Part shown: piece after piece, positions 4,075 through 26,605 of the stretch | Position numbering within the stretch: the stretch's first letter is position 1 | Layout of the letters: each line of letters opens with the position of its first letter | DNA from: a virus | Direction: 5' to 3' (one strand) | Length of the DNA: 28,422 nucleotides | IMG/VR virus record: IMGVR_UViG_3300044858_000190 | Coordinates: 1-28,422 of that record | Position numbers and translations under genes: made by a program | The notes under the pieces: model-generated | Databases searched by the model: none | What the model was told of the DNA's origin: nothing | Seen by the model: only the letters and a program-made list of their open reading frames with translations

Positions 4075-4404
4075 ATGGTTAGGGACGACGATACTCCTGC
4101 CGAACGCGGTTGGCTCTGGCGGCGTTCCTACACCTTCGCGGCGACGACAGCGAACCTCGTGCTGGTCGGTATTGGCCTGTGGCGGCTTAGCGACCCTGTT
4201 TCGCTGAAGTGGGTCTGTCTGGCGCTTATTGCCAACAACATCGTGCTGGCAGGCTTCTATCTAGGTGGGGCTTCGGTTCTGGACTGGGCTCGGCTTGCAG
4301 CTGCATGGAAGAGCGGCAAGTCTGAAAAGGTCACGGTCGAGACCCCGTCTGGGACAGTGACGCAAACAACCACCGAAACGAAACCCACGGAGATCGACCG
4401 ATGA
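4075..4404 (+). CDS. Holin candidate, two transmembrane segments
   Basis: A 109-aa membrane protein. A charged N-terminus (MVRDDDTPAERGWLWRRS) is followed by two hydrophobic segments at about residues 20-38 (TFAATTANLVLVGIGLW) and 45-67 (KWVCLALIANNIVLAGFYLG), then a hydrophilic, charged, Thr-rich tail. Size, topology and position immediately before the endolysin match a class II-type phage holin, which would form inner-membrane lesions and release the endolysin. No holin sequence signature is visible, so the call depends on context. The gene starts right after the previous TAG, and its last codons overlap the endolysin ATG at 4401 (ATGA). Confidence 0.65.
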   Translation: MVRDDDTPAERGWLWRRSYTFAATTANLVLVGIGLWRLSDPVSLKWVCLALIANNIVLAGFYLGGASVLDWARLAAAWKSGKSEKVTVETPSGTVTQTTTETKPTEIDR

Positions 4405-4826
4405 GCTTCGAGCTAGGGCCCAAGAGCCTAGAGCGCCTGTCCGGGGTAGACCCAAGGATGGTGAGAGTCGTCAAGCGCGCTATCGAGCTTACCACGCAGG
4501 ATTTTCTGGTTCTGGAAGGTGTCCGCACGCCCGCGCGGCAGGCTGAGCTCTATGCTCAAGGGCGGACTAAGCCGGGCAACATCGTGACGTGGACCCTGAA
4601 AAGCAACCACTTCAAGGACCCGGTGACGGGTTACGGGCGTGCAGTAGACCTGTGCCCCTATCCGGTGGACTGGAATACACCGTCGAAGTTTGCTGCTATC
4701 GCCAAGGCGATGTTCGCGGCGGAGAAAGAGCTTCAGATCAACATCCGTTGGGGCGCTGACTGGGACGACGATGGCGTGCCGCGCGAGCGCGGAGAAAGCG
4801 ATAGCCCTCATTTTGAGCTCGTGTAG
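4401..4826 (+). CDS. Endolysin, M15-family L-alanyl-D-glutamate-type peptidase
   Basis: A 141-aa single-domain peptidase that would cut the peptide cross-links of peptidoglycan. Early motifs are FLVLEGVRTPARQAELYAQG (the EG-RT--RQ-EL---G block of M15 enzymes). The zinc site is visible: S68-N-H70, D83 in GYGRAVDLCP, and H137 in the final SPHFELV. Compared with the canonical SxHxxGxAxD spacing there is a short insertion between H70 and D83. IRWGADWDDDG is the usual strand before the last His. The length equals the catalytic domain of T5-like endolysins, so there is no separate cell-wall-binding domain. No signal peptide or SAR segment is seen, so export depends on the upstream holin. The stop lies two bases before the Rz start. 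Confidence 0.9.
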   Translation: MSFELGPKSLERLSGVDPRMVRVVKRAIELTTQDFLVLEGVRTPARQAELYAQGRTKPGNIVTWTLKSNHFKDPVTGYGRAVDLCPYPVDWNTPSKFAAIAKAMFAAEKELQINIRWGADWDDDGVPRERGESDSPHFELV

Positions 4827-4828
4827 CC

Positions 4829-5221
4829 ATGCTTAACTTCCTCCGCCCCTACCTGATCTACATCGTTCTCGCCGGAGCGGTGCTCTCAGCGGGGGCCGGG
4901 TACAAGCTCCGTGACATACAGTGCAAAACAGACGCAGCCAAGCAGATCGCCAAGGCGGCTGAAGAGCGCCTCAAGCTGCAGGCCGTCATCGACACGAAGT
5001 CCGCTCTCTATGAGGCGGAGCGGGACAGGGCCAGCGTAGTTAACACCGAACGACACAACACAATCAGGGAGATTTTCCGCGATGCGCCTGCCGTTAGTCC
5101 TGACTGTGCTGCTCCCCCTGAGCTTGGGCGCGTGCTCGCACAAAGCGTTCTGGACGCCAACAGTGCCGCGACTGGCACCCAATCTGGCAGCTCCGTGCCC
5201 GCCGCTGAACACACCCCCTGA
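4829..5221 (+). CDS. Rz: Rz-like inner-membrane spanin
   Basis: A 130-aa protein with one N-terminal transmembrane anchor (about residues 7-25, PYLIYIVLAGAVLSAGAGY) and a periplasmic region rich in Ala, Lys, Glu and Arg (residues about 33-80), predicted to form the coiled coil used by i-spanins. It would pair with the lipoprotein encoded in another frame at 5082-5345 and fuse inner and outer membranes at lysis. Its C-terminal part (residues about 86-130) is encoded by DNA that also encodes the o-spanin signal peptide and mature N-terminus, which may explain the low-complexity Ser/Ala composition there. Position directly after the endolysin supports the call. Confidence 0.85.
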   Translation: MLNFLRPYLIYIVLAGAVLSAGAGYKLRDIQCKTDAAKQIAKAAEERLKLQAVIDTKSALYEAERDRASVVNTERHNTIREIFRDAPAVSPDCAAPPELGRVLAQSVLDANSAATGTQSGSSVPAAEHTP

Positions 5222-5345
5222 CCCCCTGCTGGACCCGGAGCGGGGGCTGTGGGAACAAGACACTATTGCCAAGTACGGCGACTGCGCGAGTAAGCACCGC
5301 AATACAGTAGAAGCGTGGCCCAAGCAGGGTAAAGATGGTAAGTAG
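5082..5345 (+). CDS. Rz1: Rz1-like outer-membrane spanin lipoprotein
   Basis: An 87-aa lipoprotein that begins inside Rz in a different frame, overlaps it by 140 bases and runs 124 bases beyond its stop. The signal peptide is MRLPLVLTVLLPLSLGACSH with a lipobox L15-G16-A17-C18, so processing would leave a lipid-modified Cys18. The mature part is short and Pro-rich (NLAAPCPPLNTPPDPLLDP), as usual for o-spanins. A GGGAG element lies about 11 bases upstream of ATG 5082. The family has little sequence conservation, so recognition depends on the lipobox, Pro content and out-of-frame overlap with Rz, all of which are seen here. It implies a host with an outer membrane. Confidence 0.88.
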   Translation: MRLPLVLTVLLPLSLGACSHKAFWTPTVPRLAPNLAAPCPPLNTPPDPLLDPERGLWEQDTIAKYGDCASKHRNTVEAWPKQGKDGK

Positions 5346-5379: not shown

Positions 5380-7794
5380 ATGGCCAGTACGTACAGCAAC
5401 CTCAAAATCCAGTTGATGGCGACTGGCGAGAACCTCTCGACTTGGGGGGCTACGACCAACGTAAACCTCGGTACGGCTTTGGAAGAAGCCATTACCGGGA
5501 CGGCAGACGTGACGTTCGCCAGCGGGAACGTTACCCTTACGTTGACCAACGTAAACACCAGTCAGACGGCTCGAAATCTGCGTTTGAACCTGACGGGTAC
5601 GACGGGGGGCGCTAGGGACTTGATTGTCCCGGCTACCGAGAAACTCTACGCGGTCAACAACGGCTGCGCCGACGCTATTACGGTCAAGAACGCTACGGGC
5701 ACAGGCATCGCGGTCCCTGCGGGCAAGACCATGTGGGTCTTCAACAACGGCACGAACGTCCTCGACGTCGTGACTCACCTTACGTCCCTTACTCTTGGCT
5801 CAGCACTCCCGGTGGCCAGCGGGGGCACGGGCGTTACGACTTCCACCGGCTCTGGCAACACCGTCCTCTCCACCTCTCCGGTGCTCACCACCCCTAACAT
5901 CGGCGTGCCCAGCTTCGCTACGCTGACTAATGCCACTGGACTGCCGATCTCCACGGGCGTCTCTGGTCTGGGAACCAACGTCGCTACCTTCCTTGCAACC
6001 CCCAGCTCAGCCAACCTAGCCGCTGCCGTCACCAACGAGACGGGTAGTGGCCTACTGGTCTTTGCCACCTCTCCAGTGCTCACTACCCCCAACATCGGTG
6101 TGCCTTCGTTTGCCACGCTGACTAACGCCACTGGCCTGCCGCTCAGCACGGGTATTACCGGCACACTCCCTGTTGCCAACGGCGGCACGGGCCAAACGAC
6201 CTACACCGATGGACAACTGCTTGTCGGCAACACGACGGGTAATACGCTCGCTAAGGCTACGCTTACGGCGGGCTCCGGTGTCGCGATTACGAACGGTGCC
6301 GGGTCTATTACGATTTCGGCTACCGGCTCGGGCGGCTCGGTTACGAGCGTCAGCGGCTCGGGTGGAACCACGGGCCTCACCCTGACGGGCGGCCCTATTA
6401 CGACTTCCGGTACGCTCACGCTTGGGGGCACTCTGGCGGTTGCTAACGGTGGCACGGGCGTTACGGCTTCCACCGGCTCTGGCAATAACGTCCTCTCCAC
6501 CTCTCCGGTGCTCACCACCCCCAACATTGGCGTGCCCAGCTTCGCTACGCTGACTAATGCCACTGGCCTGCCGATCTCCACGGGTGTGTCCGGGCTAGGG
6601 ACCAACGTCGCTACCTTCCTTGCAACTCCGTCTTCGGCCAACCTAGCCGCTGCTGTCACCAACGAGACGGGTAGCGGCCTGCTGGTCTTCGGCACCTCTC
6701 CGGTGCTCACCACCCCCAACATCGGCGTCCCGAGCTTCGCTACGCTGACTAATGCCACAGGGCTGCCGATATCCACGGGTGTGTCCGGGCTGGGAACCAA
6801 CGTCGCTACGTTCCTTGCGACTCCGTCTTCGGCTAACCTCGCCGCTACCATCACCGACGAAACGGGTAGCGGCCTACTGGTTTTTGCCACCTCTCCGGTG
6901 CTCACTACCCCCAACATCGGCGTGCCCAGCTTCGCCACACTGACTAATGCTACTGGCCTCCCGCTCACTACGGGCGTTACAGGTACGCTGGCGGTTGCTA
7001 ACGGCGGCACGGGGGTCACGGCTTCTACCGGCTCTGGCAATAACGTCCTCTCCACCTCTCCGGTGCTCACTACCCCCAACATCGGCGTGCCCAGCTTCGC
7101 CACACTGACTAACGCTACTGGCTTGCCGCTCGGCACGGGTATTACCGGTACTCTTCTCGTCGTTAACGGCGGCACGGGGGTCACGACTTCCACCGGCTCC
7201 GGCAGCACCGTCCTGTCCACCTCTCCCGTGCTGACTACCCCCAACATTGGCGTGCCCAGCTTTGCTACGCTGACTAACGCTACTGGCCTCCCACTCACTA
7301 CGGGCGTGACAGGCGTTCTACCGGTCGCCAACGGCGGTACTGGAGGCACTCTACCGGTCGCCAACGGCGGTACCGGCAGCACAGATGCAGCTTCGGCTCG
7401 CACTGCGCTAAGCGCGGCTGTGTCGGGCACGAACAACGACATCACGAGTTTCAGCGCCCTGACTACGGCGGCTATGCAGGCTATCCTTTCAGGCGCGATA
7501 TCAGTCTCGCTGGCAACTGGGGGTTATATCCGTTTTGGTGCCTCTGGCTCGCTGGTGCTCCAATGGGACACGGTTTCGCTGGCGGACGACACGCAGGCTA
7601 CATTTACGCTGCCTCTAGCGTATGTAACGGCGCATCTGGGGGCCGTAGCCGTGGTCAACTCCACAAGCTCGCCCGGCGCTGGCTCTGCCCTGAGTGCATA
7701 TGTCGGCACTCGAGGACTCACAAACATTCAACTGGCGCAGGGCTCGGTTGTCACTAGCGGTTCCACAGTGACGTACTTCTCGTGGGGGTACTAA
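5380..7794 (+). CDS. Repeat-built tail fibre protein, 804 aa
   Basis: ATG 5380 follows a TAAGGA site. Residues 1-142 form an N-terminal virion-attachment-like domain starting MASTYSNLKIQLMATGENLS and including TWGATTNVNLGTALEEAITG, a start common in phage fibres. Residues 143-666 consist of two kinds of repeat: seven copies of a 24-residue block that starts SPVLTTPNIGVPSF and ends TNATGLP, and seven copies of an LPVANGGTG-type block. Residues about 714-804 (GGYIRFGASGSLVLQW to the final VTYFSWGY) resemble the gp53-like C-terminal knob of putative tail fibres, with LQW and a terminal aromatic strand. The protein presumably trimerises and binds the host surface. The DNA repeats make length changes by recombination likely. 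It lies between the lysis cassette and the nozzle gene. Confidence 0.85.
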   Translation: MASTYSNLKIQLMATGENLSTWGATTNVNLGTALEEAITGTADVTFASGNVTLTLTNVNTSQTARNLRLNLTGTTGGARDLIVPATEKLYAVNNGCADAITVKNATGTGIAVPAGKTMWVFNNGTNVLDVVTHLTSLTLGSALPVASGGTGVTTSTGSGNTVLSTSPVLTTPNIGVPSFATLTNATGLPISTGVSGLGTNVATFLATPSSANLAAAVTNETGSGLLVFATSPVLTTPNIGVPSFATLTNATGLPLSTGITGTLPVANGGTGQTTYTDGQLLVGNTTGNTLAKATLTAGSGVAITNGAGSITISATGSGGSVTSVSGSGGTTGLTLTGGPITTSGTLTLGGTLAVANGGTGVTASTGSGNNVLSTSPVLTTPNIGVPSFATLTNATGLPISTGVSGLGTNVATFLATPSSANLAAAVTNETGSGLLVFGTSPVLTTPNIGVPSFATLTNATGLPISTGVSGLGTNVATFLATPSSANLAATITDETGSGLLVFATSPVLTTPNIGVPSFATLTNATGLPLTTGVTGTLAVANGGTGVTASTGSGNNVLSTSPVLTTPNIGVPSFATLTNATGLPLGTGITGTLLVVNGGTGVTTSTGSGSTVLSTSPVLTTPNIGVPSFATLTNATGLPLTTGVTGVLPVANGGTGGTLPVANGGTGSTDAASARTALSAAVSGTNNDITSFSALTTAAMQAILSGAISVSLATGGYIRFGASGSLVLQWDTVSLADDTQATFTLPLAYVTAHLGAVAVVNSTSSPGAGSALSAYVGTRGLTNIQLAQGSVVTSGSTVTYFSWGY
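5806..7377 (+). repeat. Interspersed coding repeats of the tail fibre gene
   Basis: The 72-base unit (SPVLTT...NATGLP) starts at 5875, 6070, 6502, 6697, 6892, 7057 and 7222. The 27-base LPVANGGTG-type unit starts at 5806, 6166, 6433, 6988, 7153, 7318 and 7351. Two linker types separate the long units: a 41-codon linker with STGVSGLGTNVATFLATPSS (giving a 195-base period at 5875, 6502 and 6697) and a 31-codon linker containing the NGGTG block (165-base period at 6892 and 7057). One 120-codon unique insert lies between 6142 and 6501. All copies are in frame and nearly identical in protein, with mainly silent differences. Confidence 0.95.
7318..7373 (+). repeat. Short direct repeat, two identical 23-base copies
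   Basis: The 23-base segments 7318-7340 and 7351-7373 are identical (both begin CTACCGGTCGCC) and are offset by 33 bases, that is 11 codons, so each encodes LPVANGGT. It is the only immediate duplication of the NGGTG block in the fibre and looks more recent than the other copies, because the others differ at silent positions. Confidence 0.9.
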
Positions 7795-12349: not shown

Positions 12350-12825
12350 GAGAAATGCTAGAGTTCGATACTCCTGAATGGCAAGCACTTCGCAACGAGA
12401 AGCTCCAAGAGTGGATACAAGACCCTTACGCCATCCGGTTTATCGTAGACTTCGCTGACACCTGCGAACTGTTTGACGACATGATCGACCGGGATAAACC
12501 CCTCGAAGACGACCACATCGTGCGGGTGCTGTTCAAAGTCCTTACCGAAATCCCGCTGAACCCTTTTTTCGACCGGTTCAAGAGTCAGCTTATCCCTATC
12601 ATAATCACGGGGATTAACGCTTGGCTGGACTCCACTGAGCTGGAAAACGGGTCCGACAACGACAAGGTTTTCGCTTACGTGCTCCGAGACTGGTACATGG
12701 AGTTTGTGGCGTACGTCGTGTATCTTACCCGGGGCAGAGACTACATGCGGGATACGAGCATGGAAATCCGCCAGTTCTTTACTCACCACGAAACGCTCGA
12801 AGAGTATAAGGAAAAAATGGCATGA
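12346..12825 (+). CDS. Conserved phage hypothetical protein, helical, 159 aa
   Basis: The frame begins with GTG 12346, overlapping the previous TGA (GTGA); ATG 12355 is an alternative start, nine bases downstream. The protein is acidic and almost all helical: EWQALRNEKLQEWIQDPYAI, then DTCELFDDMIDRDKPLEDDH, LFKVLTEIPLNPFFDRFKSQ, then VFAYVLRDWYMEFVAYVVYL. The order (helix, --DDMID-DKP--D--I, L-EIP-NPF) recurs in phage hypothetical proteins located next to internal virion genes. The DDMID element resembles an acidic metal-binding motif, but this is not enough to propose an enzyme. It could be a chaperone or structural partner of the large proteins on both sides. Its stop overlaps the next ATG as ATGA. 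Confidence 0.65.
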   Translation: MREMLEFDTPEWQALRNEKLQEWIQDPYAIRFIVDFADTCELFDDMIDRDKPLEDDHIVRVLFKVLTEIPLNPFFDRFKSQLIPIIITGINAWLDSTELENGSDNDKVFAYVLRDWYMEFVAYVVYLTRGRDYMRDTSMEIRQFFTHHETLEEYKEKMA

Positions 12826-14843
12826 GTGGTGGGGGCGATAAAGCACAGCCGACCGAGCAACAGGTTACGACGACTACCAGCAACCTGCCCGAATACGCTC
12901 GTCCGTATTTCGAGAACCTCGTCAACCGGGCGCAGGCAGAGTCTTATCGCGAGTATACCCCCTACCAAGACCAGCGCATTGCTGGTTTTACCCCCGGACA
13001 AACTCAAGTCCAGCAGCAGACGATGGGGATGCAAGCCCCCGGGCAGTACGGCACGGCTTCTGGGCTAGCCACCGCTTCGGGTCTTGGGTCTATAGCTGCG
13101 GGTCAATACGCACCCGCGCAGGTGAACAACCAGCAGATCGGCCAACCCAACCTGCTGAGCTACCAGATGCGCAACCCGCAGAACGTCTATGGTATGGCGC
13201 AGGCTGCGCCCCAGATCGACGCTGCCCAGACCGGCTATAACCCCAACCTGCAGAACCTGCAGATGGGCCCGGCGGATCAAGTCTCTGCGCAGAACTACAA
13301 CTCGCCTCAGATGGGCGTTGCCCGGACGGACTACGCTCCGGGGCTCCAGCAGTACCTTATGAGTCAGGCGGGTCGGGTCTCAGGCTCGCAACTCTCCGCT
13401 GCGGACACACCGCAGATCACAGCTGCCCAGACCGGCTTCAACCCCAACCTGCAGCAGTACCAGATGGGTGCCCCTGACGAGTTCGGTCAGGCTCAGGCGT
13501 CCCAGTACATGTCCCCGTATATCCAGAGCGTGCTGGATGTGCAGAAGCGCGAAGCCGTCACTGACGCGCGCAAGGCGCAGATTAACCAAGACCTCGGCGC
13601 TGCCCGTCAGGGTACCTACGGGGGCTCTCGTCAGCTTCTGGCGGGCATGGAGCGCGAGCGAGCGCTGGGCCAACAACTCGGGGATATCCAAGCTCGCGGG
13701 CTCCAGTCTGCGTACGAAAATGCGCAGTCTCAGTTTGAGCGCGACCGCGCGGCGGGAATGAGCGCCGAAGGGCAAAACCTTCAAGCACGCCTCAGCGTGC
13801 AACAACTGGGGGCCCAGACTGGCGTCCAGACGGCGCTGGCTAATCTCTCTTCGGAGCAGCAGGCGCGGGTGCAGAACCAAGCGGCCCTGCTCCAGAACCA
13901 AGGGATGAACGCCGAGCAGGCGCTGCGCGCGGCGCTGGCCAACCAGCAAGCCGAGCTTACTGTGGGGCAGCAGAACCAGCAGGCTGGCCTCCAAACGCAA
14001 CAACTGGGGACTCAGACGGGCCTGCAGACGGCGCTGGCTAACCTGTCCTCGGAGCAGCAGGCTCAGGTCCAGAACCTCGCCGCCCAACTGCAAACGCAGG
14101 GGCTTAACGCTGAGCAGGCCATGCGCGCGGCGCTGGCTAACCAGCAAGCAAACCTGACGACGGGACAACAGAACCTGCAGGCGGGGCTGCAAACCCAGCA
14201 GCTCGGCGCTCAAACGGGTGTCCAGACGGCGCTGGCTAACCTGTCCTCGGAGCAGCAAGCGAACGTACAGAACCAAGCGGCCATCCTGCAAACGCAGGGG
14301 CTTAACGCTGAACAGGCCATGCGCGCGGCGCTGGCCAACCAGCAAGCTCGACTGACGACGGGGCAACAGAACCTGCAGGCTAACCTGCAGACGCAGCAGC
14401 TTGGCGCTCAAACCGGCCTGCAAGCTCTTTTGGCTAACCAGCAGACTAACCTCGAAGCCCAAAAGCTGGCCGAACAGTCGCGCCAGTTTGGGGGTAACCT
14501 CGGCCTGCAGGGTCTGGCGCAAGCCAACCAGAGTGCGCAGACGCTCAGCAACATCGGCTCGGCTCAGCAGCAAGCGGACCTGTCTCGTCTCGCCGCGCAA
14601 GGGAACGTGGCCGCGCAGCAGCAGCTTCTGCAGCAGCAGCAAATGGACATGGCGTACGCCGACTTCCTGCGCCAGCGCGACTACCCGATGGAACAGCTGG
14701 GTTATTACAGTAACCTGCTACGTGGTCTCCCGGTTGGTCTCGGTTCTACCGCGACGACGTATGGACAACCCCCGTCCGTTGCTGCACAGATCGGTGGTGT
14801 TGGGCTCGGCGCTACGGCGCTTTCTCAGATGGCACGAGGCTAA
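12822..14843 (+). CDS. Gln-rich internal virion (ejection) protein with 66-residue repeats
   Basis: The 673-aa protein starts at an ATGA overlap with an AAGGA site upstream. Residues 1-60 (TSNLPEYARPYFENLVNRAQ, YTPYQDQRIAGFTPGQTQ) form a start common in podovirus internal proteins. Residues about 60-225 contain two copies of a loose repeat (DAAQTGYNPNLQNLQMG and TAAQTGFNPNLQQYQMG). Residues about 226-310 carry the conserved block SQYMSPYIQSVLDVQKREAV, then LGAARQGTYGGSRQLLAG. Residues 327-524 are three 66-residue repeats rich in Gln, Ala and Leu, predicted coiled coil. The C-terminus has a helix with MDMAYADFLRQRDYPMEQL and a small Gly-rich end. It probably lies in the internal core and is ejected with DNA, comparable in position to T7 gp15; no alignment supports that equivalence. 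Confidence 0.7.
   Translation: MSGGGDKAQPTEQQVTTTTSNLPEYARPYFENLVNRAQAESYREYTPYQDQRIAGFTPGQTQVQQQTMGMQAPGQYGTASGLATASGLGSIAAGQYAPAQVNNQQIGQPNLLSYQMRNPQNVYGMAQAAPQIDAAQTGYNPNLQNLQMGPADQVSAQNYNSPQMGVARTDYAPGLQQYLMSQAGRVSGSQLSAADTPQITAAQTGFNPNLQQYQMGAPDEFGQAQASQYMSPYIQSVLDVQKREAVTDARKAQINQDLGAARQGTYGGSRQLLAGMERERALGQQLGDIQARGLQSAYENAQSQFERDRAAGMSAEGQNLQARLSVQQLGAQTGVQTALANLSSEQQARVQNQAALLQNQGMNAEQALRAALANQQAELTVGQQNQQAGLQTQQLGTQTGLQTALANLSSEQQAQVQNLAAQLQTQGLNAEQAMRAALANQQANLTTGQQNLQAGLQTQQLGAQTGVQTALANLSSEQQANVQNQAAILQTQGLNAEQAMRAALANQQARLTTGQQNLQANLQTQQLGAQTGLQALLANQQTNLEAQKLAEQSRQFGGNLGLQGLAQANQSAQTLSNIGSAQQQADLSRLAAQGNVAAQQQLLQQQQMDMAYADFLRQRDYPMEQLGYYSNLLRGLPVGLGSTATTYGQPPSVAAQIGGVGLGATALSQMARG
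13800..14393 (+). repeat. Three tandem 198-base coding repeats (plus partial fourth)
   Basis: Units start at 13800, 13998 and 14196, each exactly 198 bases (66 codons), and a partial fourth copy begins at 14394 and fades after about 10 codons. Each unit begins QQLGAQTGVQTALANLSSEQ (or with T/L changes) and contains AEQA-RAALANQQA. Copies 2 and 3 are most alike. Sixty-six residues equals six hendecads, which fits a long continuous helix or coiled coil. The unit length has been kept exactly. Confidence 0.93.
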
Positions 14844-16768: not shown

Positions 16769-19700
16769 ATGCCGATCCGCGTATCCGGGCCTGACGGGCA
16801 GATTTACGAGTTTCCAGACGGGACCCCCGATACGGTCATGGCCGGGGCATTGGCACGCCAGTACCCTTCGCCAACGAAGAAGCCCGAAGGACGCCGTAGT
16901 CCGTTCAAGGCTGGCTGGGAAGGAGCGAAGACGCAGCTCACGGTGGGTCTCCCCTACGCGCTTGAGCGAGTGACGAACACGCTGACTCCACAGGAGGAAG
17001 CCGACTATAGCCGACGCATGCAAGAGTCCGCTCGGAAGCAGGAAGAGCTGCTCCCCGGAGGCCCGGCCAGTGTGCAGGACTTGTTTGGTGGTAAGACTGG
17101 GTTCGGGACGTTCCTGACTGAGAACTTCGGGGTTAGCGCGCCGCAGATGGGCGCGACGATGCTTGGGGGTCTCGCAGGTGCTGCCGTGGGTACGGCGGTC
17201 GCTCCCGGCCCGGGTACGTTAGCCGGTGGTGTTGCCGGTGCAGCTCCCGGCGCTCTTATCGGTGGCGCGCTAGCTGGCGTGCCGATGTTTGTAGGGTCTA
17301 ACACTGAGCGCGCTACGGAGGGTGGGCAAGAAGCCCTTACGCAGGGCGAAGCCGTCCGAAGCATCGCCGTTGCTCCGCTACAAGCCCTAGCAGACTCCGC
17401 TGCAAACCTCCTCATGCCGGGTGTCGGCAGGGTTCTGGGACGCGCAGCGTCTACGGCTTCCAAGGGGATAGTGGGCGCCACTGTACGGGGTGTAGGCAAA
17501 GGCGCGCTGGCGGAAGCGATCACGGAGCCTGCGCAGCAATTAGGCGAACGGTTTGCAGCTGGTCTGCCTCTCGGTGACCGCGAAGCCTTCGGGGAGTATG
17601 GTACGGCTGCCGCGACTGCGGGTATTATGGGCGGCGTCATGGGTGGCGTCGGCGGCCCGCTAGAGTATACTTTCAGGGAGAAGCCTGCGGAAAGTACGGC
17701 GGGTGCGGGTTCTACCCCCACGCCGGGAGAGTTCACTCCTGACGAAGCACAAGTGTTCAACGCAGCGTATGCAGGTTACACACAAGGGGGCATGAGCCAG
17801 CAGGCGGCCACGAACGCTGCATCTGCCGACGTTGCGACTTTCAGGGAAACTACGGATGCTGGAGCTGACGCTGGAGGACTTGGGGGTGGCGTTCCAAGCC
17901 CTGATGGGGAACCTGTCAGAGGACAACCTGCCGGACAGACTGCAGACGCTGGACGCGGAGACGTGGGAGCAGCTGGCGGAGTTGATGGTACGCCTGCTCA
18001 GCGAGCGGAGTCTGTCGAGTCTGCACTAAAGAAACCACTCCCCGTCCACCGCCGGGAGGTGGTCGAGGCTTTCAAGTCCACCGCGCTGGACTACGAAGAA
18101 GACTACGGCCTCAAGTTTGCGCCTGCGGATATTAAGGAAGCGGCAACGATCCGTGCCAACGACCCGACTGTGGCCCCAGAAGATGCGGTTCGCACGGTAA
18201 TTGAAAGGCGTATTGAAGCCAAAGCGCTAGAGCTCCCTGAGACGATCAAGGGCCCGGACAACGTCACGGACGTGCCGGTTACACCCGAGCTCGTGCGCCC
18301 GGCTTCACAAGTCATAGCCCAGCAGTTGGTGACAGACCTCCCCCAGCTGCAGGAGACGTACAACATCACGGATATGTCTCCGGAAGAAACGTCGGCCCTC
18401 GTGGCTAAGGCCGTGGTCACGCAGCTCAAAAACACGTCGCTGACGCCGAGCGAAGCGCTAGAGCAGACGGTGGTGCGGGCACAGACCAAGAAGAAAAAAG
18501 CTGCGCCTGCTGCGGAGATTACCCCGCCTGCTCCCGCGCCTATTGCGGAGATTGCGGCCCCGGAAGTGCCACCGCTTGCAGTGCCTATGCCTACCCCGGA
18601 AGTGAGCGCTCAGGCTGCGCCTCCCCCGCTACCCGTCCCGTCCGCCGTGCAATACGCAGAAGACCCCAAGGCTTATGCCGAACGCACCTACGCTAACCCC
18701 AAGAGCCGGGCGGCTTTTATCACGGGTGTTAATGCTACCCTGAAGCCTGAGACAGCACTTGCAGGCGACGACTTGGCTGCGCTGGGGGCGTACACCTCTG
18801 CGTATGAGCAGGGTAAGTCTTTTGCGCTGGAAGCGCAGGGTGAAGGTCTGGAAATCCAAGCCAAGCGCGGGCGCGGCAGGCCGACGAAAGAAGCGCAGGC
18901 TGAAATCCTAGCGGAGCGCCAACTTGCAGAACCCGACGACACAGTAAGCGAAGAATTTACAGGGGAGCTGTCCCCGGTCCAGAAAGAACAGCAGCAAGTA
19001 ACGGCGTTGCTGAACGGGCTCAAGAACACAGGAAAGATCAGCCCGCAAGAGTTTACGCAACTGCGCGACTTGTCGGCGCAAGGTATGCGCCGTGGGCAAC
19101 TGGTGCCTGTTATCAACCGTGTCTTGAAGAAGAGCAGTGGCAACCCGCTAAGGGAAGACTACGGCGCGCAGTCTTTCCCCCTGCACCTTGATAGCCCGGG
19201 GCCGCGTGTGGAGACCGGCGACGTTACCGCTGTGAGCCCTGCAGAGCAGGTTGTTCTGGATCGCCTGACGGACGAAGACAAAACCGCGCTGGCGAAAGTG
19301 TACGGGCATAGAGTTTTTGACGACGAGTCGCAGTTCAACCTCCTGCAGGACTACCAAGCCCTTGAAGCAGGTGTCAGCCGACTAGTGGACCCCGAAGTGA
19401 AGAAGGTCTTGCGCGAGCGAGGCCCTGAAACTTTTGCCACCCCCAAGCAGTATGAGGTTACTCGGCGCGGACTGCTGGCCGGTATCGCAAGTGGTGCTGT
19501 GGCGGCGGCTACCAGTGCTGAAGCAATCACACTCCCCCGCACCAGCGTCGACTCAATGGCGGGGGTCAAGGCTGCGCTCAAGACAGGTGATCTTGGGCAG
19601 GTTGTGCGGGCGCTGCAGGCGCAGCTGACTGATCCGAATATGAAAGAAGTTGCCCGCCTGATGCTACTGGGCGGCTTCGGCGACGTGCGTGTTGACGTGG

Positions 19701-22700
19701 TGGACTACGGGGACACCGAGCTAGATGTGCTGGGGGAGACCGACAGCACTACCGGCAACGTAACCCTGTTTAAGACGACTAACGGCCCGTCGGGGGACAC
19801 GGTAGAAACCATCCTGCACGAGGCGATGCACTCGTGGCTCGTGCGGCGTATCCGCAGCATCAGTATGTATAACGCGAACAACGCGCGGCTGGCAGGGTTC
19901 GACAAAACCCAGAACATCGATCCGTTCGTAAAAGAGTTCAAAGACCTGTGGCGGTCGTTCTCCACGGCGATGAAAACCGAGTACCCCGCGCTTGTAGAGA
20001 ACGAAGTATGGGCTTCGGAAGCGTACCGCTCACCGGACGAAATGTTCGTGCGCGTCTTCACCGACCCAGACCTGCAGGCTTTTCTGAAGACGATTGATAT
20101 CAACGGCGACACGCTCAAGTCGCCTGCGACAAAGTCCTTCTGGGGTAAGATTGTCGATGCGTTCAGCAAGCTGTTCGGCATTACCCGCGCACCTGTGAAG
20201 AGCGCCTTCGAAACCATCATGAACGCGGGTTACGGCGTCCTGAAAGCCGGTGCACTGGATACGCCTACTGGTGAGTTTACCGAGAAGGTGACGAAGTTCG
20301 GTAACGAAAACGAGCGCGTGCAATACGCCAAGACGAAGCGCCAGTCGAAGATCGAAAACACCCAAGCCGGGCTAGAACTCTCGCACCGCGCGATGGACAT
20401 CGTGCGGAATACCTCGGACATGATCCCGATGGCGCGTAACCCGAAGCGGGCGATAAGTGTGATCCAGTCTCTCGGAGACGCGCTTAAACCTGCGGCACTG
20501 CGTAGGCTGCTACCCACGATGAGCTCGAACGATATCATCCGTTGGGTAGCTAACCGCCTGCCCGGCCTTAGCCGCGTGCGCGACGCCGTAGACGACATGG
20601 GGCGGTTCCGTACCCAGCTCATAACAGACTTGGCCGAAAAGGTGCCGGAGTGGGCGGCCTACAACAAGAAGGTCAAGGGCACCAAGGAAGAGTACGCGCT
20701 GGCGGACACCATGCACTTTGCGACCCTGCACGGTGTGGACCCGTCCGTAGGCACTCTTCGGGGCGCACTGACTAACGACGAAACGCTGACCAACCTCGGC
20801 AACGCTATCGACCCTAAGGCTAACTCCCAGCGCAAAACCCGCACTGCCGAGATCGCTGAAGCCTTCAAATACTATAACTCGCTGTCGCCGGAGGGGCAGG
20901 CGATCTTCCGTATGGCCAAGAAAGCCTACCAAGATACGTTCGAGCTGCACATGAAGCTGCTCCTTGAGAAAATCGAGTCCTCGGGTCTGGACGCCGACAA
21001 GAAAAAGCGGACTGTCTCGTATATCACGCAGCAGTTCCAAGACGCGAAGAAGCTCGGTCTGTACTTCCCCCTGATGCGCTACGGCCAGCACTGGGCGCGC
21101 TTTGGTACGCGCGAAAAAACCGAGTTTTACATGTTCGAGAGCGCGCTGGAGCGAAACGAGTTCGTCAAGGACCGCGTGCAAACCCTGAATGCTGCGGGAG
21201 ACACCCGCAGTGCGGAAAAGATGATCGAAGAAGGTTATCTGGATCGCGGCGACACGCTGGACAAAGTCAGGGCCGAGTTCACCGGGGGTGAGCAGGCCAG
21301 CGATGTGCTCAAGACCATCTACAGCGCACTGGATGCAGGCGTCGCGGACAGTACGGACCTCAAAGACCTCGTGTACCAGATGTATCTGCGTACGCTGCCC
21401 GATGCGGATATCCGTAAGAAGTTCATGCACCGGAAAGGCACCAAGGGCTACGGCTCGGACGTCCTCCGCAACTTCATCTCGTCGCAGTACTCCGAGGCTA
21501 ACCGCCTTGCGCGGCTTAAGTACGGTGAACAAATCCGCCTACGTGTCGGGGAGGCGTACGCTAGCCTCCAAGGCAACCCTGACAAGATCAACCTTGCTCC
21601 GTTCGTTGACGAAATCTCCCGCCGGGCGTTCACGGAGGTTATGCCTGTTCAACCCCAAGAAGGCGGGATCGACTGGGACAAAGCCGCGACAATCGGCAAC
21701 AAGATCGTCTTCTTCTGGTTCCTGACGTCACCGAAGTCCGCGATTATTCAGTTCACTCAGCTGCCTATGGTGGGCCTGCCTGTCCTTACGGCTAAGTACG
21801 GAGCGGGGAAAACGCTGGCTACCGCTGCGCGGTACATGAACCTTCTGAACAAGCTCGGCATCCCGACGCAGGCGCGCAACGGCGTTACCCTTAAGTTCGA
21901 AGGGCTCAACGTCTCCGACTCCGCGTACATCCGGAACATGAAAAATACCGCGCGCAAGGACGCGCTGCTGTTCGCTGATAAGTTCGCCCGAGAGCGTGAG
22001 CTGTACCTGTCTACCTACGCTGCAGATATGTCGGAGCGCAGCTCAGCCCCTTCGGAGGCTTACGAGAGCCTGCCAAGTCGGGTGACACGCAACACGCTGG
22101 ACACCATCTCTGGCCTGTTCCACCACATGGAACGCATAAACCGGCAGATCATGTACATGTCGGCATTCGAGCTGGCTTACGATGCACGGATGAAAGAAAC
22201 GGGCGCGACGTCCCAGTCCGCAGCAGAGCTCGCTGCACAGGACGCGTTCGACCTCACTGAAGAGGCTATGTTCGACTACTCCGCGTTCAACAAGCCTTCG
22301 GTGTTCAAGTCTCCGGGCGGGAAAATCGCTTTCCAGTTCATGACCTACCCGATCCAGATGACTTCGTACGTCGTGCGTAATGCGTACAATATGTTCAAGG
22401 CTACGGAGCCGGGCGAGCGCAAGGCGGCGGCCATCAAGTTTTTCGGTACGATGGGTATGTCCGCGATGTTCTCCGGCGCGACGGGTATCCTCGGCTATCA
22501 CTTCATGATGGGCCTGCTAGAGGGCCTGCGCGACATGCTGCGCCCCGACAAGGACGACGAGGACGCTGACGAGTACTACGACGACGCAGAGGACAACCCG
22601 CTGGGTAAGCGCAGCCTCGACCTGTGGTTCCGCTCGTGGTTCCTCCCGCACTACTTCGGGGCTGGCAGTGGGATTGCAGAGGCGCTTAACCTCACCCCCG

Positions 22701-23452
22701 AGCAGGCTAACCTGCTTCAACGGTCTATAGAGTTCGGACCAATATCGGCCCTGACAGACCTGAACGTCAGCGGTTCGACCGCGCTGGACGGGATGTGGTT
22801 CCAAGACGACACACCTGCGGAGAGCAACGAGGAAGCGGCAAAGAACGCCATGCTGTCCCTGTTCGGCCCGTTGGGCAGCCTCATTATCCAAGGCGGGCAG
22901 GCTGCAGATGCGTTCGGGCGGGGGGACGGTATTCGTGCACTCGAAAAGCTACTCCCGGCTTTCTTCCGGGGCTCGGCCACCGCTGTGCGGTTGGGTAGCG
23001 AGGGTCTGACGACGCGCGATGGCGCGGAGCTAGTGGCGGCGGAGGAGTACACCTTCGGTAAACTGGCGGCGCAAACTGCAGGCTTCGCTAGCACTGAAGC
23101 GGGGGAAATCCAGAAGCGGAACCTTCTGGCGAAGCGCATGGTCATGGGTATCGAGAAGGACAGAACGAAGCTCCTAGATACACTGGACAAGGCGTACCGC
23201 CGCTACGCCGCCAACCCTTCCGACGAGAATGACGCGCGCATTGATAGCGTCCTCGATGACATCGACGAGTTTAACTACAAGAACAACGTCTACCCGATCA
23301 CGGGGGACACCATCTCGCGATCCCTGACGGGCCAAGAACGTCGGCGCGGGGAAGCGATCCAAGGGCTTACAGTCGGCAAGCCTTTCAGAGGGGGTCTCGA
23401 AGGTCTGTTCGAGAACGAAATGCTCGAAGAGGAAATGCTCGAAGAGGAATAA
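16769..23452 (+). CDS. Giant polyvalent internal virion protein with HExxH peptidase-like domain, 2227 aa
   Basis: ATG 16769 has a weak AGGG site and lies 8 bases after the previous stop. Residues 1-33 (MPIRVSGPDGQIYEFPDGTP) match the short N-terminal domain shared by many phage ejection proteins. Residues about 119-182 and 240-300 contain Gly/Ala hydrophobic stretches (LGGLAGAAVGTAVAPGPGTL; AATAGIMGGVMGGVGG) that could cross a membrane. A disordered Pro/Ala linker region follows. Residues 898-920 look like a Tat signal (TRRGLLAGIASGAVAAATSA). A zinc-peptidase-like domain follows, with H1017-E-A-M-H1021 and a possible third ligand E1091 in SPDEMFVRVF. The rest is mostly helical, with blocks such as KIVFFWFLTSPKSAIIQFTQ, AFQFMTYPIQMTSYVVRNAY and an acidic stretch near 1928-1943, typical of large polyvalent (LPD-type) phage proteins. 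It is larger than T7 gp16 (1318 aa). I see no lysozyme or RNA polymerase motif. Confidence 0.78.
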   Translation: MPIRVSGPDGQIYEFPDGTPDTVMAGALARQYPSPTKKPEGRRSPFKAGWEGAKTQLTVGLPYALERVTNTLTPQEEADYSRRMQESARKQEELLPGGPASVQDLFGGKTGFGTFLTENFGVSAPQMGATMLGGLAGAAVGTAVAPGPGTLAGGVAGAAPGALIGGALAGVPMFVGSNTERATEGGQEALTQGEAVRSIAVAPLQALADSAANLLMPGVGRVLGRAASTASKGIVGATVRGVGKGALAEAITEPAQQLGERFAAGLPLGDREAFGEYGTAAATAGIMGGVMGGVGGPLEYTFREKPAESTAGAGSTPTPGEFTPDEAQVFNAAYAGYTQGGMSQQAATNAASADVATFRETTDAGADAGGLGGGVPSPDGEPVRGQPAGQTADAGRGDVGAAGGVDGTPAQRAESVESALKKPLPVHRREVVEAFKSTALDYEEDYGLKFAPADIKEAATIRANDPTVAPEDAVRTVIERRIEAKALELPETIKGPDNVTDVPVTPELVRPASQVIAQQLVTDLPQLQETYNITDMSPEETSALVAKAVVTQLKNTSLTPSEALEQTVVRAQTKKKKAAPAAEITPPAPAPIAEIAAPEVPPLAVPMPTPEVSAQAAPPPLPVPSAVQYAEDPKAYAERTYANPKSRAAFITGVNATLKPETALAGDDLAALGAYTSAYEQGKSFALEAQGEGLEIQAKRGRGRPTKEAQAEILAERQLAEPDDTVSEEFTGELSPVQKEQQQVTALLNGLKNTGKISPQEFTQLRDLSAQGMRRGQLVPVINRVLKKSSGNPLREDYGAQSFPLHLDSPGPRVETGDVTAVSPAEQVVLDRLTDEDKTALAKVYGHRVFDDESQFNLLQDYQALEAGVSRLVDPEVKKVLRERGPETFATPKQYEVTRRGLLAGIASGAVAAATSAEAITLPRTSVDSMAGVKAALKTGDLGQVVRALQAQLTDPNMKEVARLMLLGGFGDVRVDVVDYGDTELDVLGETDSTTGNVTLFKTTNGPSGDTVETILHEAMHSWLVRRIRSISMYNANNARLAGFDKTQNIDPFVKEFKDLWRSFSTAMKTEYPALVENEVWASEAYRSPDEMFVRVFTDPDLQAFLKTIDINGDTLKSPATKSFWGKIVDAFSKLFGITRAPVKSAFETIMNAGYGVLKAGALDTPTGEFTEKVTKFGNENERVQYAKTKRQSKIENTQAGLELSHRAMDIVRNTSDMIPMARNPKRAISVIQSLGDALKPAALRRLLPTMSSNDIIRWVANRLPGLSRVRDAVDDMGRFRTQLITDLAEKVPEWAAYNKKVKGTKEEYALADTMHFATLHGVDPSVGTLRGALTNDETLTNLGNAIDPKANSQRKTRTAEIAEAFKYYNSLSPEGQAIFRMAKKAYQDTFELHMKLLLEKIESSGLDADKKKRTVSYITQQFQDAKKLGLYFPLMRYGQHWARFGTREKTEFYMFESALERNEFVKDRVQTLNAAGDTRSAEKMIEEGYLDRGDTLDKVRAEFTGGEQASDVLKTIYSALDAGVADSTDLKDLVYQMYLRTLPDADIRKKFMHRKGTKGYGSDVLRNFISSQYSEANRLARLKYGEQIRLRVGEAYASLQGNPDKINLAPFVDEISRRAFTEVMPVQPQEGGIDWDKAATIGNKIVFFWFLTSPKSAIIQFTQLPMVGLPVLTAKYGAGKTLATAARYMNLLNKLGIPTQARNGVTLKFEGLNVSDSAYIRNMKNTARKDALLFADKFARERELYLSTYAADMSERSSAPSEAYESLPSRVTRNTLDTISGLFHHMERINRQIMYMSAFELAYDARMKETGATSQSAAELAAQDAFDLTEEAMFDYSAFNKPSVFKSPGGKIAFQFMTYPIQMTSYVVRNAYNMFKATEPGERKAAAIKFFGTMGMSAMFSGATGILGYHFMMGLLEGLRDMLRPDKDDEDADEYYDDAEDNPLGKRSLDLWFRSWFLPHYFGAGSGIAEALNLTPEQANLLQRSIEFGPISALTDLNVSGSTALDGMWFQDDTPAESNEEAAKNAMLSLFGPLGSLIIQGGQAADAFGRGDGIRALEKLLPAFFRGSATAVRLGSEGLTTRDGAELVAAEEYTFGKLAAQTAGFASTEAGEIQKRNLLAKRMVMGIEKDRTKLLDTLDKAYRRYAANPSDENDARIDSVLDDIDEFNYKNNVYPITGDTISRSLTGQERRRGEAIQGLTVGKPFRGGLEGLFENEMLEEEMLEEE
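23417..23446 (+). repeat. 15-base tandem repeat at the end of the giant gene
   Basis: 23417-23431 and 23432-23446 are identical 15-base units (GAAATGCTCGAAGAG) giving a C-terminal tail with two MLEEE elements. The acidic tail is then cut by TAA at 23450. Copy-number change here would alter the tail without affecting the frame. Confidence 0.9.
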
Positions 23453-23547: not shown

Positions 23548-23742
23548 TCAAGTTCTCCAGATACGTAAACCCTGCACGCTGTCCTCGACTACTATTTTGA
23601 TGAAGACGTATATTTTACGCCGCGTGAGTAAATCCCTAATCTTCGCGCGGGCGGCTACGCAGTTTACACACGGGATAAAGATAGATTGCCCCGGCTTAAA
23701 CTCCGTCCAGTTTACCCGATACTCAACCTGCTCCACCCGCAT
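23548..23742 (-). CDS. Small conserved phage hypothetical protein, 64 aa
   Basis: The frame is open from 23832, but the start that fits is ATG at 23742-23740, preceded by TGAGGA with a 5-base spacing; this start overlaps the end of the primase-helicase gene by 20 bases. The product begins MRVEQVEYRVNWTEFKPGQS and continues with IFIPCVNCVAARAKIRD, then a KIVVEDSVQGLRIWRT end. The pattern E-EY-VNW--FK-G-S-F-PC and a C-terminal EGV-GLR-WR is one I have seen in small phage proteins downstream of replication genes. Alternating beta/alpha pattern; two cysteines (CVNC). The function is unknown. It is the last gene before the terminator. Confidence 0.75.
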   Translation of the reverse strand: MRVEQVEYRVNWTEFKPGQSIFIPCVNCVAARAKIRDLLTRRKIYVFIKIVVEDSVQGLRIWRT

Positions 23743-26605
23743 CGGCGTCCTCAGTTGCGGCCATGCTGCGCATATCCATAAAACCCTGCGCGGCGGTGTT
23801 AAAGACCAGCACATGGGACGGTGCTGAGGCAAGCTTCATGCCGGACGAAAGCCGCTTGGTCGCGGTGCCGATGAACACCCCCATAGAGGTAAGGGTCTTC
23901 AAGGTGTCCCGGTAATTGATCTGGTACTTGACGCAGTCCGTCTTGAACGCACCCGCTGTGAAGTAGAGCCGCTGCACGTCCGGCTCGAACCGGATCAAGA
24001 GCTCCCCCTTGGGCTCCCGGCTAGGGAGCGTAGCCATGTTGGACTTGGGGTCCTTCTCGGCGTTGACCACCAGAATGTTCTGCAGGTTGCGGTTCATGTA
24101 CTCCGCGAGGACAGACACCGGGTCGCTGAGCGCGGGCGGGAGGGTCACTTGCTCCCGCATAGACAGAAACGCCTTACAGGCAAACGCGTAGATCGCGCGG
24201 ATATCCCAGTCGAGCAGGCCGAGCTCCTTGGCGATCAGACCCCCGGCGATATTGCATGCAACCTCTGCCGCCCAGAACCGTTCACTCTTTGTGACTCGCA
24301 GCTCTTTAGCCAGCCGCTCCTGCATCCCGGTCAGTGTAGCGATGGCGCTTTCTTTGTTGTTAACGAGGAAGTCAACGTAGATGGGACCCGCAACCCCGTA
24401 GTTATCCAGCAGCTGGTGGTCGAACATCTCCCTGCCGAGCTCTGCGTCGATGGCGTCGACGGGGCCGATCTTGTACTCAAAAATACGCATGAGCTCCCCG
24501 GAGGGGTTGGTCTTGATCGAATAGAGCTTCTCTACAAAAGACGCGTTGGAGCTGCACAGGCCGATGGTCTGCCACGTCGTGGTGTTGGTGCGCATCTCGT
24601 TCACAGACTGCTTCATGCGGTCCTTGCCGCGCCCCTGCGTCAGCCCGTAGAGGAAGTCTGAAAACTCCTGCGCCGTGGTGTTGGTGATCTCGTCGAACGT
24701 ACAGGGCAGGTTGTTGTTCATACCCATGCGCTGCACTTTAGCGTTCATGGTGTCGGCCTGTGTCAGGCACAAACCTATGGGGGAGCCGTAGACGCTGTTG
24801 CACATAAGCAACGTGGTCGTCTTGCCAGTACCCGACTCCGGGTGCACTACGTTGATAGCCGCGCCACTAAGGCCAGTGAACTTGAAGAGCGGAGCGCCAA
24901 ACGCAGTAAGCGCGGCGAAGGCGTGGGGTTCGAGCCCCTTGCGCCCGTAGAGGTTAAAGACCTCCTTCCACTTCTCCAGTGTGCCTTTGGCCTGCATCTT
25001 CGCTGCGAGGTTCTCGGTGACTGATGACGGTGGGCTCGAGAAGGTGCCGTCCGTTGTGTACTCTTTGTCGCCCAGAACGAAACCTTTGTCGTCCTCGGTC
25101 CAACCCATTTGTTGCCGCATTTTCTCTACCTTCTGTGTGGTTTGCAGTTCTCTAACGGAGTTCATGACGTAGTCCGTGATCAAGTCGAAGCGCTTCTTGG
25201 TCGTCATCACACCGTAGGAAGCCAGTACTTTCCGGAGTTCGTTACCATCCATGACCTCTGCGTTCGAAAGGGTGAACTCCTTCAAGCCGTCCAGCGGCAT
25301 GTGGATATGTAGGATGACAACGTCACGCTTGACCGGATCGTTCATGCGCTTCAGGACGTAGATCGGGTACTCATAGACGAGTGCAGGTTCTTCTTCGTCC
25401 TTCGATGCCATCCGCCACAGGCTGTAGTCTTTGCCCCACTGGTACGGAAAAGGGGGTTTAGGGTATCTCCCCGGCAGCGGTGCGGAGTCTTCGCTCTCGT
25501 CTTCATCCAGCTCGAACTCTGGGTCGGCTTCGGGTTCCTCGGGTTCTGCCACCACCCGACCTAGCGCCAAGGGGTTAGTGATTTTGCCCCAGTGTGGGCA
25601 GCCTTCGCAGCCGCCGGGGTTGGTGTTCGCAAACACCGCACAAGAGTGCGGCCCCCCGATATGCTGGATTTTCCGCTCGGTGTTGTCGGGGTCGTAGCCG
25701 GGGTAGCCCTCGGACATCTTGTGGATCGCGCTATCGCAATCAGCGCAGAACTTAGCAATAGAAAGCGCATTGAACCAACGAGGCTCTTCCAGCGTAGCGC
25801 GGTTCTCGTAGCAGTCCCGGAGCTGATTGCACCCTGTGCCCGACATGCTGCGCCGCATGATCTTGGCGAAGCTGGTGTCGCTGCTATCCCGTAGCAGTTT
25901 TGCGAGGGGAGTTAGTTCGTTACCGCCTTCTCTCTTTGCCAGCGCCATGCGCGGTGCAACGTAAGGGGTTGTCGGTTCCCCCAGAAGCTCCTTGAACTCT
26001 GCTAGGTCTACGGCCTTGGAGTAGGCGATGACTTCCACGGGTAGTGGCTCGTCGCCCTTGTGGTTGAAGGTGCCGGGCACACGCAATATGCGAGACACTT
26101 CGAAGATCGCCGGGTCGACGTAGAACTCACGCTCTACGCAGAGCTCCCGCAGGCGGGCGGCGACGGGCTCCCACTCTTCACGGGTCACGGCCTCAGTGAG
26201 CGGCCAGTATGCGTGTACCCCGCGCCCAGAGTTAACCAAGGTCGGGCGGGGCAGGTGCAAGTCGGTGCAGAAACCGCGCAGGGCAGCGATAGCGGCGGTC
26301 TGGTCTTCGTAGCCTGCAGGGCGGCCTGTCTTGGGGTTGGGCGCGGCTTTGCTAGGACCGCAGTCGATATCGAGCCACAGCGCCTGCAGGCTGTGAACAT
26401 TTTCCTTGGTGCGGTTCTCGTTGGTCTTGAACTTCGCCACGCCGAAGAAGACGTCGCGGTTAGCGGCTACGTGCTTTTTAACAAGGGCGTCTACAGCTTC
26501 TCGCGTCTCGACGAAGTCCTGACGTACAGCGCCGTTCTTGATGCCGACGACCGCAAACCACCCGCCGGGTGGCTGTACTGTGCTGAGGAGGTCTTTGTCG
26601 GTCAT
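23723..26605 (-). CDS. AEP-type primase fused to DUF927-like helicase, 960 aa
   Basis: The main replication protein in the window. The N-terminal ~200 residues show the archaeo-eukaryotic primase pattern: catalytic hhhDhD in LWLDIDCG (D79, D81), SGRGVH (S126-H131), and SRILRVPGTFNHKG (R175, K183). A Cys-rich segment with C322, C333 and C336 (PGGCEGCPHWG) probably binds zinc. An acidic linker follows (FELDEDESEDSA). From about residue 470 a DUF927-like helicase domain appears, with Walker A at about 588-597 (HPESGTGKTTTLL) and Walker B CTFDEITN (D638-E639). It would make primers and unwind the fork. The start at 26605 lacks a Shine-Dalgarno sequence but has a complex palindrome five bases upstream. 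The C-terminal tail (ATEDADAGGAG) is acidic and flexible. Confidence 0.88.
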   Translation of the reverse strand: MTDKDLLSTVQPPGGWFAVVGIKNGAVRQDFVETREAVDALVKKHVAANRDVFFGVAKFKTNENRTKENVHSLQALWLDIDCGPSKAAPNPKTGRPAGYEDQTAAIAALRGFCTDLHLPRPTLVNSGRGVHAYWPLTEAVTREEWEPVAARLRELCVEREFYVDPAIFEVSRILRVPGTFNHKGDEPLPVEVIAYSKAVDLAEFKELLGEPTTPYVAPRMALAKREGGNELTPLAKLLRDSSDTSFAKIMRRSMSGTGCNQLRDCYENRATLEEPRWFNALSIAKFCADCDSAIHKMSEGYPGYDPDNTERKIQHIGGPHSCAVFANTNPGGCEGCPHWGKITNPLALGRVVAEPEEPEADPEFELDEDESEDSAPLPGRYPKPPFPYQWGKDYSLWRMASKDEEEPALVYEYPIYVLKRMNDPVKRDVVILHIHMPLDGLKEFTLSNAEVMDGNELRKVLASYGVMTTKKRFDLITDYVMNSVRELQTTQKVEKMRQQMGWTEDDKGFVLGDKEYTTDGTFSSPPSSVTENLAAKMQAKGTLEKWKEVFNLYGRKGLEPHAFAALTAFGAPLFKFTGLSGAAINVVHPESGTGKTTTLLMCNSVYGSPIGLCLTQADTMNAKVQRMGMNNNLPCTFDEITNTTAQEFSDFLYGLTQGRGKDRMKQSVNEMRTNTTTWQTIGLCSSNASFVEKLYSIKTNPSGELMRIFEYKIGPVDAIDAELGREMFDHQLLDNYGVAGPIYVDFLVNNKESAIATLTGMQERLAKELRVTKSERFWAAEVACNIAGGLIAKELGLLDWDIRAIYAFACKAFLSMREQVTLPPALSDPVSVLAEYMNRNLQNILVVNAEKDPKSNMATLPSREPKGELLIRFEPDVQRLYFTAGAFKTDCVKYQINYRDTLKTLTSMGVFIGTATKRLSSGMKLASAPSHVLVFNTAAQGFMDMRSMAATEDADAGGAG

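Follow-up and report, generated by a model that had tools for sequence, protein, structure and literature searches.

A giant phage polyvalent protein with a zincin-like metallopeptidase domain and a Tat-like segment

The window analysed here, a whole virus record of 28,422 bases, encodes a giant protein of 2227 aa that closes the structural operon (16769..23452, + strand). We consider it, with a probability of about 0.75, to be an ordinary phage polyvalent protein carrying a metallopeptidase, in which the twin-arginine (RR) segment ahead of the peptidase is a private linker helix and not a Tat signal. This assigns the peptidase of a giant, so far uncharacterised phage protein to a widespread family with invariant predicted zinc ligands. 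The eye-catching export-signal look-alike appears to be a lineage-private feature and not a part of this system.

Domain organization and relatives of the giant protein

Features by which polyvalent proteins are recognized are present, namely, large size, several domains, LPD39 together with tail-700, and a location in a phage structural operon. The proposed layout is a long variable N-terminal part followed by a zincin-like metallopeptidase (MPTase), LPD39 and the tail-700/PLxRFG core, with all features encoded on the + strand. An Ala/Gly-rich hydrophobic stretch (residues 127-175, 17147..17293) is found in the N-terminal region that aligns with the IMG/VR relatives L061 and L103. The MPTase domain, delineated by profiles, alignment and a structural model, covers residues ~924-1165 (19538..20263). 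Downstream are LPD39 (PF18858, Pfam E 1.8e-19; residues 1242-1434, 20492..21070) and tail-700/PLxRFG (NF032893, NCBIfam E 1.6e-85), the best-matched stretch of which spans residues 1430-1934 (21056..22570); likeness to relatives extends past this match, to residue ~2207. The order MPTase, LPD39, tail-700/PLxRFG is common to relatives of similar size. In PHROGs, the giant protein matches DarB-like antirestriction proteins (E 7e-55). Judging from its family and gene position, it is probably present in the virion and delivered with the DNA.

The C-terminal core was found by tblastn in 34 phage records, among them phages of Klebsiella, Vibrio, Ochrobactrum and Rhizobium, mostly within giant genes of 5-15 kb, several of which, among the ten looked at, are the last large gene of a one-strand run. 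HExxH is present upstream of the core in six out of ten giant core proteins examined. A scan of genomes with the core alignment returned no match. Among the core relatives, the nearest five, with 36-38% identity across ~1000 residues, have neither the RR segment nor the peptidase, and their similarity to the window starts only at residue 1205-1229; the MPTase region is thus an exchangeable cassette.

Several other parts of the window are worth recording. A probable lysis cassette is located within the structural operon (4075-5345). It consists of a small hydrophobic holin-like ORF (4075-4404) with no PHROG match, an endolysin (phrog_465, E 1e-47), an Rz-like spanin (4829-5221) and a lipoprotein-like Rz1 ORF (5082-5345) overlapping the latter out of frame. 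The 804-aa tail-fibre-like protein (5380-7794) is largely made of repeats (SPVLTTPNIGVPSFATLTNATGLP...) and has a gp53-like C-terminus, and a 673-aa protein (12822-14843) contains long Gln/Ala-rich internal repeats (QQLGAQTGVQTALANLSSEQQA...). The replication module starts on the − strand with a 960-aa DUF927 primase/helicase-like protein (23723-26605).

A widespread family of phage metallopeptidases

The sequence-only reading had guessed at a metallopeptidase from the HEAMH motif, and profile comparisons bear this out. A profile of 63 phage relatives, from which the window was left out, matches residues 924-1212 with 62.6 bits (E 5e-18), versus a maximum of 6.6 bits among 2000 shuffles. A second profile, likewise built without the window and made of five independent phage MPTases (Rhizobium, Planktothrix and crAss-like phages), gives 32 bits, versus 4.6 for the best shuffle. 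HEAMH (residues 1017-1021, 19817..19831) and E1091 (20039..20041) lie exactly where they had been placed, and H1017, E1018, H1021 and E1091 are invariant in the alignment of 64 proteins. The proposal that E1091 is a glutamate ligand also agrees with the structural model, where this residue is on a helix following that of HExxH. Thus, H1017, H1021 and E1091, the last being the probable third ligand, would bind zinc, and E1018 would act as the general base.

The family is large. A DNA scan with the motif EF[IV]AEAF[ST]NP found at least 120 stretches, from which 80 loci were taken; HExxH is present at the expected upstream distance in 77 of these 80 loci (of at least 120), and the other three end at a contig or locus edge. 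As seen on inspection of the alignment, the window copy has two insertions between HExxH and E1091 and reads EMFVRVFTDP where the family has EFVAEAFSNP, making it a divergent member. Yet, as judged from its sequence, its set of predicted metal ligands is complete. Exact peptides of the window's own domain had no match in viral and genome collections, tblastn of the MPTase cassette against phages and plasmids produced nothing or noise at E about 2-6, and pairwise single-sequence hhalign was too weak. An unannotated frame of crAss-like phage cr10_1 (L035) carries two tandem copies of the MPTase family, with HEIVH and HEIAH.

An AlphaFold2 model was built from the 64-sequence alignment; a single-sequence version (pLDDT 44.6) was discarded. 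A structure prediction had been suggested as a check for a zinc-peptidase fold, and the model displays the element order of zincins, strand-strand-HExxH helix-Glu helix (model helices 143-169 and 220-229), with a pLDDT of about 85-98 in the peptidase core. A fold search in BFVD with this model retrieved phage polyvalent, crAss-like, internal-core and virion RNA polymerase proteins (best E 5.6e-7), including proteins named large polyvalent protein (E 4.6e-5), and the corresponding search in PDB gave no significant match. The predicted peptidase would most likely cut its own polyprotein, either inside the head or once it has entered the cell, or act on host proteins. In polyvalent proteins, the zincin-like MPTase is the commonest domain, and self-processing has been proposed as one function (Iyer et al. 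2017, PMC5512222).

The Tat-like segment and its interpretation

The RR segment starts with T898-R-R in one continuous frame of 2227 aa, away from the N-terminus, and reads TRRGLLAGIASGAVAAATSA (19460..19519). Its position is as originally described; its length is 20 residues (898-917) and not 23. The twin-Arg part is T-R-R-G-L-L-A, versus the consensus S/T-R-R-x-F-L-K, followed by an uncharged Ala-rich core and an A-E-A end. The Tat model TIGR01409 matches a 57-aa piece with 18.3 bits (cut-off 16.7), with none of nine shuffles matching, and the six-frame scan of the record with 17.9 bits (E 1.6e-4 for this record). On a 202-aa piece, only 15.2 bits are reached, below the 16.7 cut-off, and the model is absent from the match list of the whole protein. 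When the protein is shuffled 20000 times, a comparable arrangement of RRx(hydrophobic) and an uncharged core arises in 44 of the resulting sequences (0.2%), and among 102 phage records the window segment is the only match of the Tat model over the cut-off. By sequence, the likeness is borderline, modestly above chance, and the segment appears to be a better-than-average look-alike. That pure chance is the source of this likeness is not certain. In the AlphaFold2 model, residues 892-915 are drawn as a helix with low confidence (pLDDT of the block about 38-68), outside the confident fold.

In the alignment, the RR segment is outside the conserved block, in the variable linker. A strict regex scan found it in none of 77 relatives (loci from 80 of at least 120), and it is absent at -160 to -80 from all 72 relatives with enough upstream sequence (again from 80 of at least 120 loci). 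In two looser RR matches, those of L060 and L093, charged residues are present within or beside the core, and these matches are not Tat-like. The Tat model finds nothing above the cut-off in the 80 family-carrying records (of at least 120), and the same holds for another 21 phage records. Searching DNA for the pattern TRRGLLAG[IVM]A retrieved just two chance 27-aa frames, and no near relative covering the segment was found. Among the relatives listed, the Tat-like segment is therefore not conserved together with the peptidase domain. Homologues with an intact HExxH and no RR segment had been named beforehand as evidence against the claims made for the segment; all 72 informative relatives listed are of this kind.

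These observations bear directly on the suggestion that a metallopeptidase, once separate and exported by Tat, became part of the phage protein, leaving the RR segment as a relict signal. The twin Arg, the hydrophobic core and the A-E-A end directly before the peptidase domain, as well as the 17.9-18.3 bits obtained on the short piece and in the six-frame scan, are what such a fusion would leave. However, the peptidase belongs to a large phage polyvalent family, found at the same place in giant proteins without the RR segment and collinear with LPD39 and tail-700 in these signal-less relatives, and an exact-peptide scan of 84,980 species genomes, of low sensitivity, found no cellular relative of the domain. 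Since the relatives lack the segment and the nearest core relatives lack the cassette, the fusion is not supported, and we regard it as barely credible. Fusion of an exported peptidase is largely contradicted by phage-family membership and the signal-less relatives.

It is very unlikely that an internal start, for example at GTG 873 or 877, or self-cleavage after entry turns the segment into a true N-terminal Tat signal. A start at in-frame GTG 873 would provide an n-region of about 25 residues, and its anti-SD pairing is -6.1 kcal/mol. However, this pairing is unremarkable, ranking 8 among 122 start-like codons, some 11 nt separate the SD-like AGGTG from the GTG, no outstanding Shine-Dalgarno sequence was found for an internal start, and the segment is not conserved. 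Equally far-fetched is a working Tat signal, exposed by self-cleavage or an internal start, through which the host Tat pathway would handle the peptidase together with the LPD39/tail-700 part, post-ejection or before assembly. If such a signal worked, this would be the first virion protein to make use of the host's Tat pathway through an internal signal; we know of no earlier one, and a literature search on Tat and phage virion proteins returned phage-display papers only. A membrane-inserting helix, used while the giant protein crosses the envelope during ejection, is also doubtful. Giant ejected proteins must cross membranes, and, when the linker regions of the window and its relatives are compared, 16-residue hydropathy is highest in this segment (1.61). 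However, its Kyte-Doolittle value over 19 residues (1.51) is marginal, nothing comparable is present at this place in relatives sharing the architecture, and the other Ala/Gly-rich hydrophobic stretch, at residues 127-175, is in a region aligning with relatives. The latter stretch is the likelier membrane-active element. We thus favor a private helix, rich in Ala and Gly and located in the variable linker immediately ahead of the peptidase, that looks like a Tat signal but is not one and may at most act as a flexible, cleavable or membrane-touching linker.

Comparison with known systems

The RR segment shares with Tat signal peptides (TIGR01409) the twin Arg, the uncharged Ala-rich core and the A-x-A end, but it is internal (residue 898), borderline in score and not conserved. 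Relatives L103 and L061 have the same architecture of MPTase, LPD39 and tail-700 in proteins of similar size, and L104 and L080 share MPTase and tail-700 with the window. In L103, L061, L087, L097 and L080, three of which are 2107-2227 aa long, the region from MPTase to tail-700 is collinear over up to ~1300 residues; unlike in the window, the EFVAEAFSNP block is intact and the RR segment is absent. The PLxRFG/tail-700 giants of Klebsiella phage SopranoGao, Ochrobactrum phage POI1126 and Rhizobium phage RHph_TM29 resemble the window protein in the C-terminal core (23-25% identity, tblastn E down to 1e-46). They carry HExxH upstream of the core, as in the window, but lack the RR segment and differ in their N-terminal parts. 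Like the polyvalent proteins described by Iyer et al. 2017 (PMC5512222), the window protein is a multidomain giant with an HExxH helix followed by a Glu helix, an in-chain LPD39 and DarB-like core kin; unlike them, it has a private Tat-like hydrophobic segment ahead of the MPTase.
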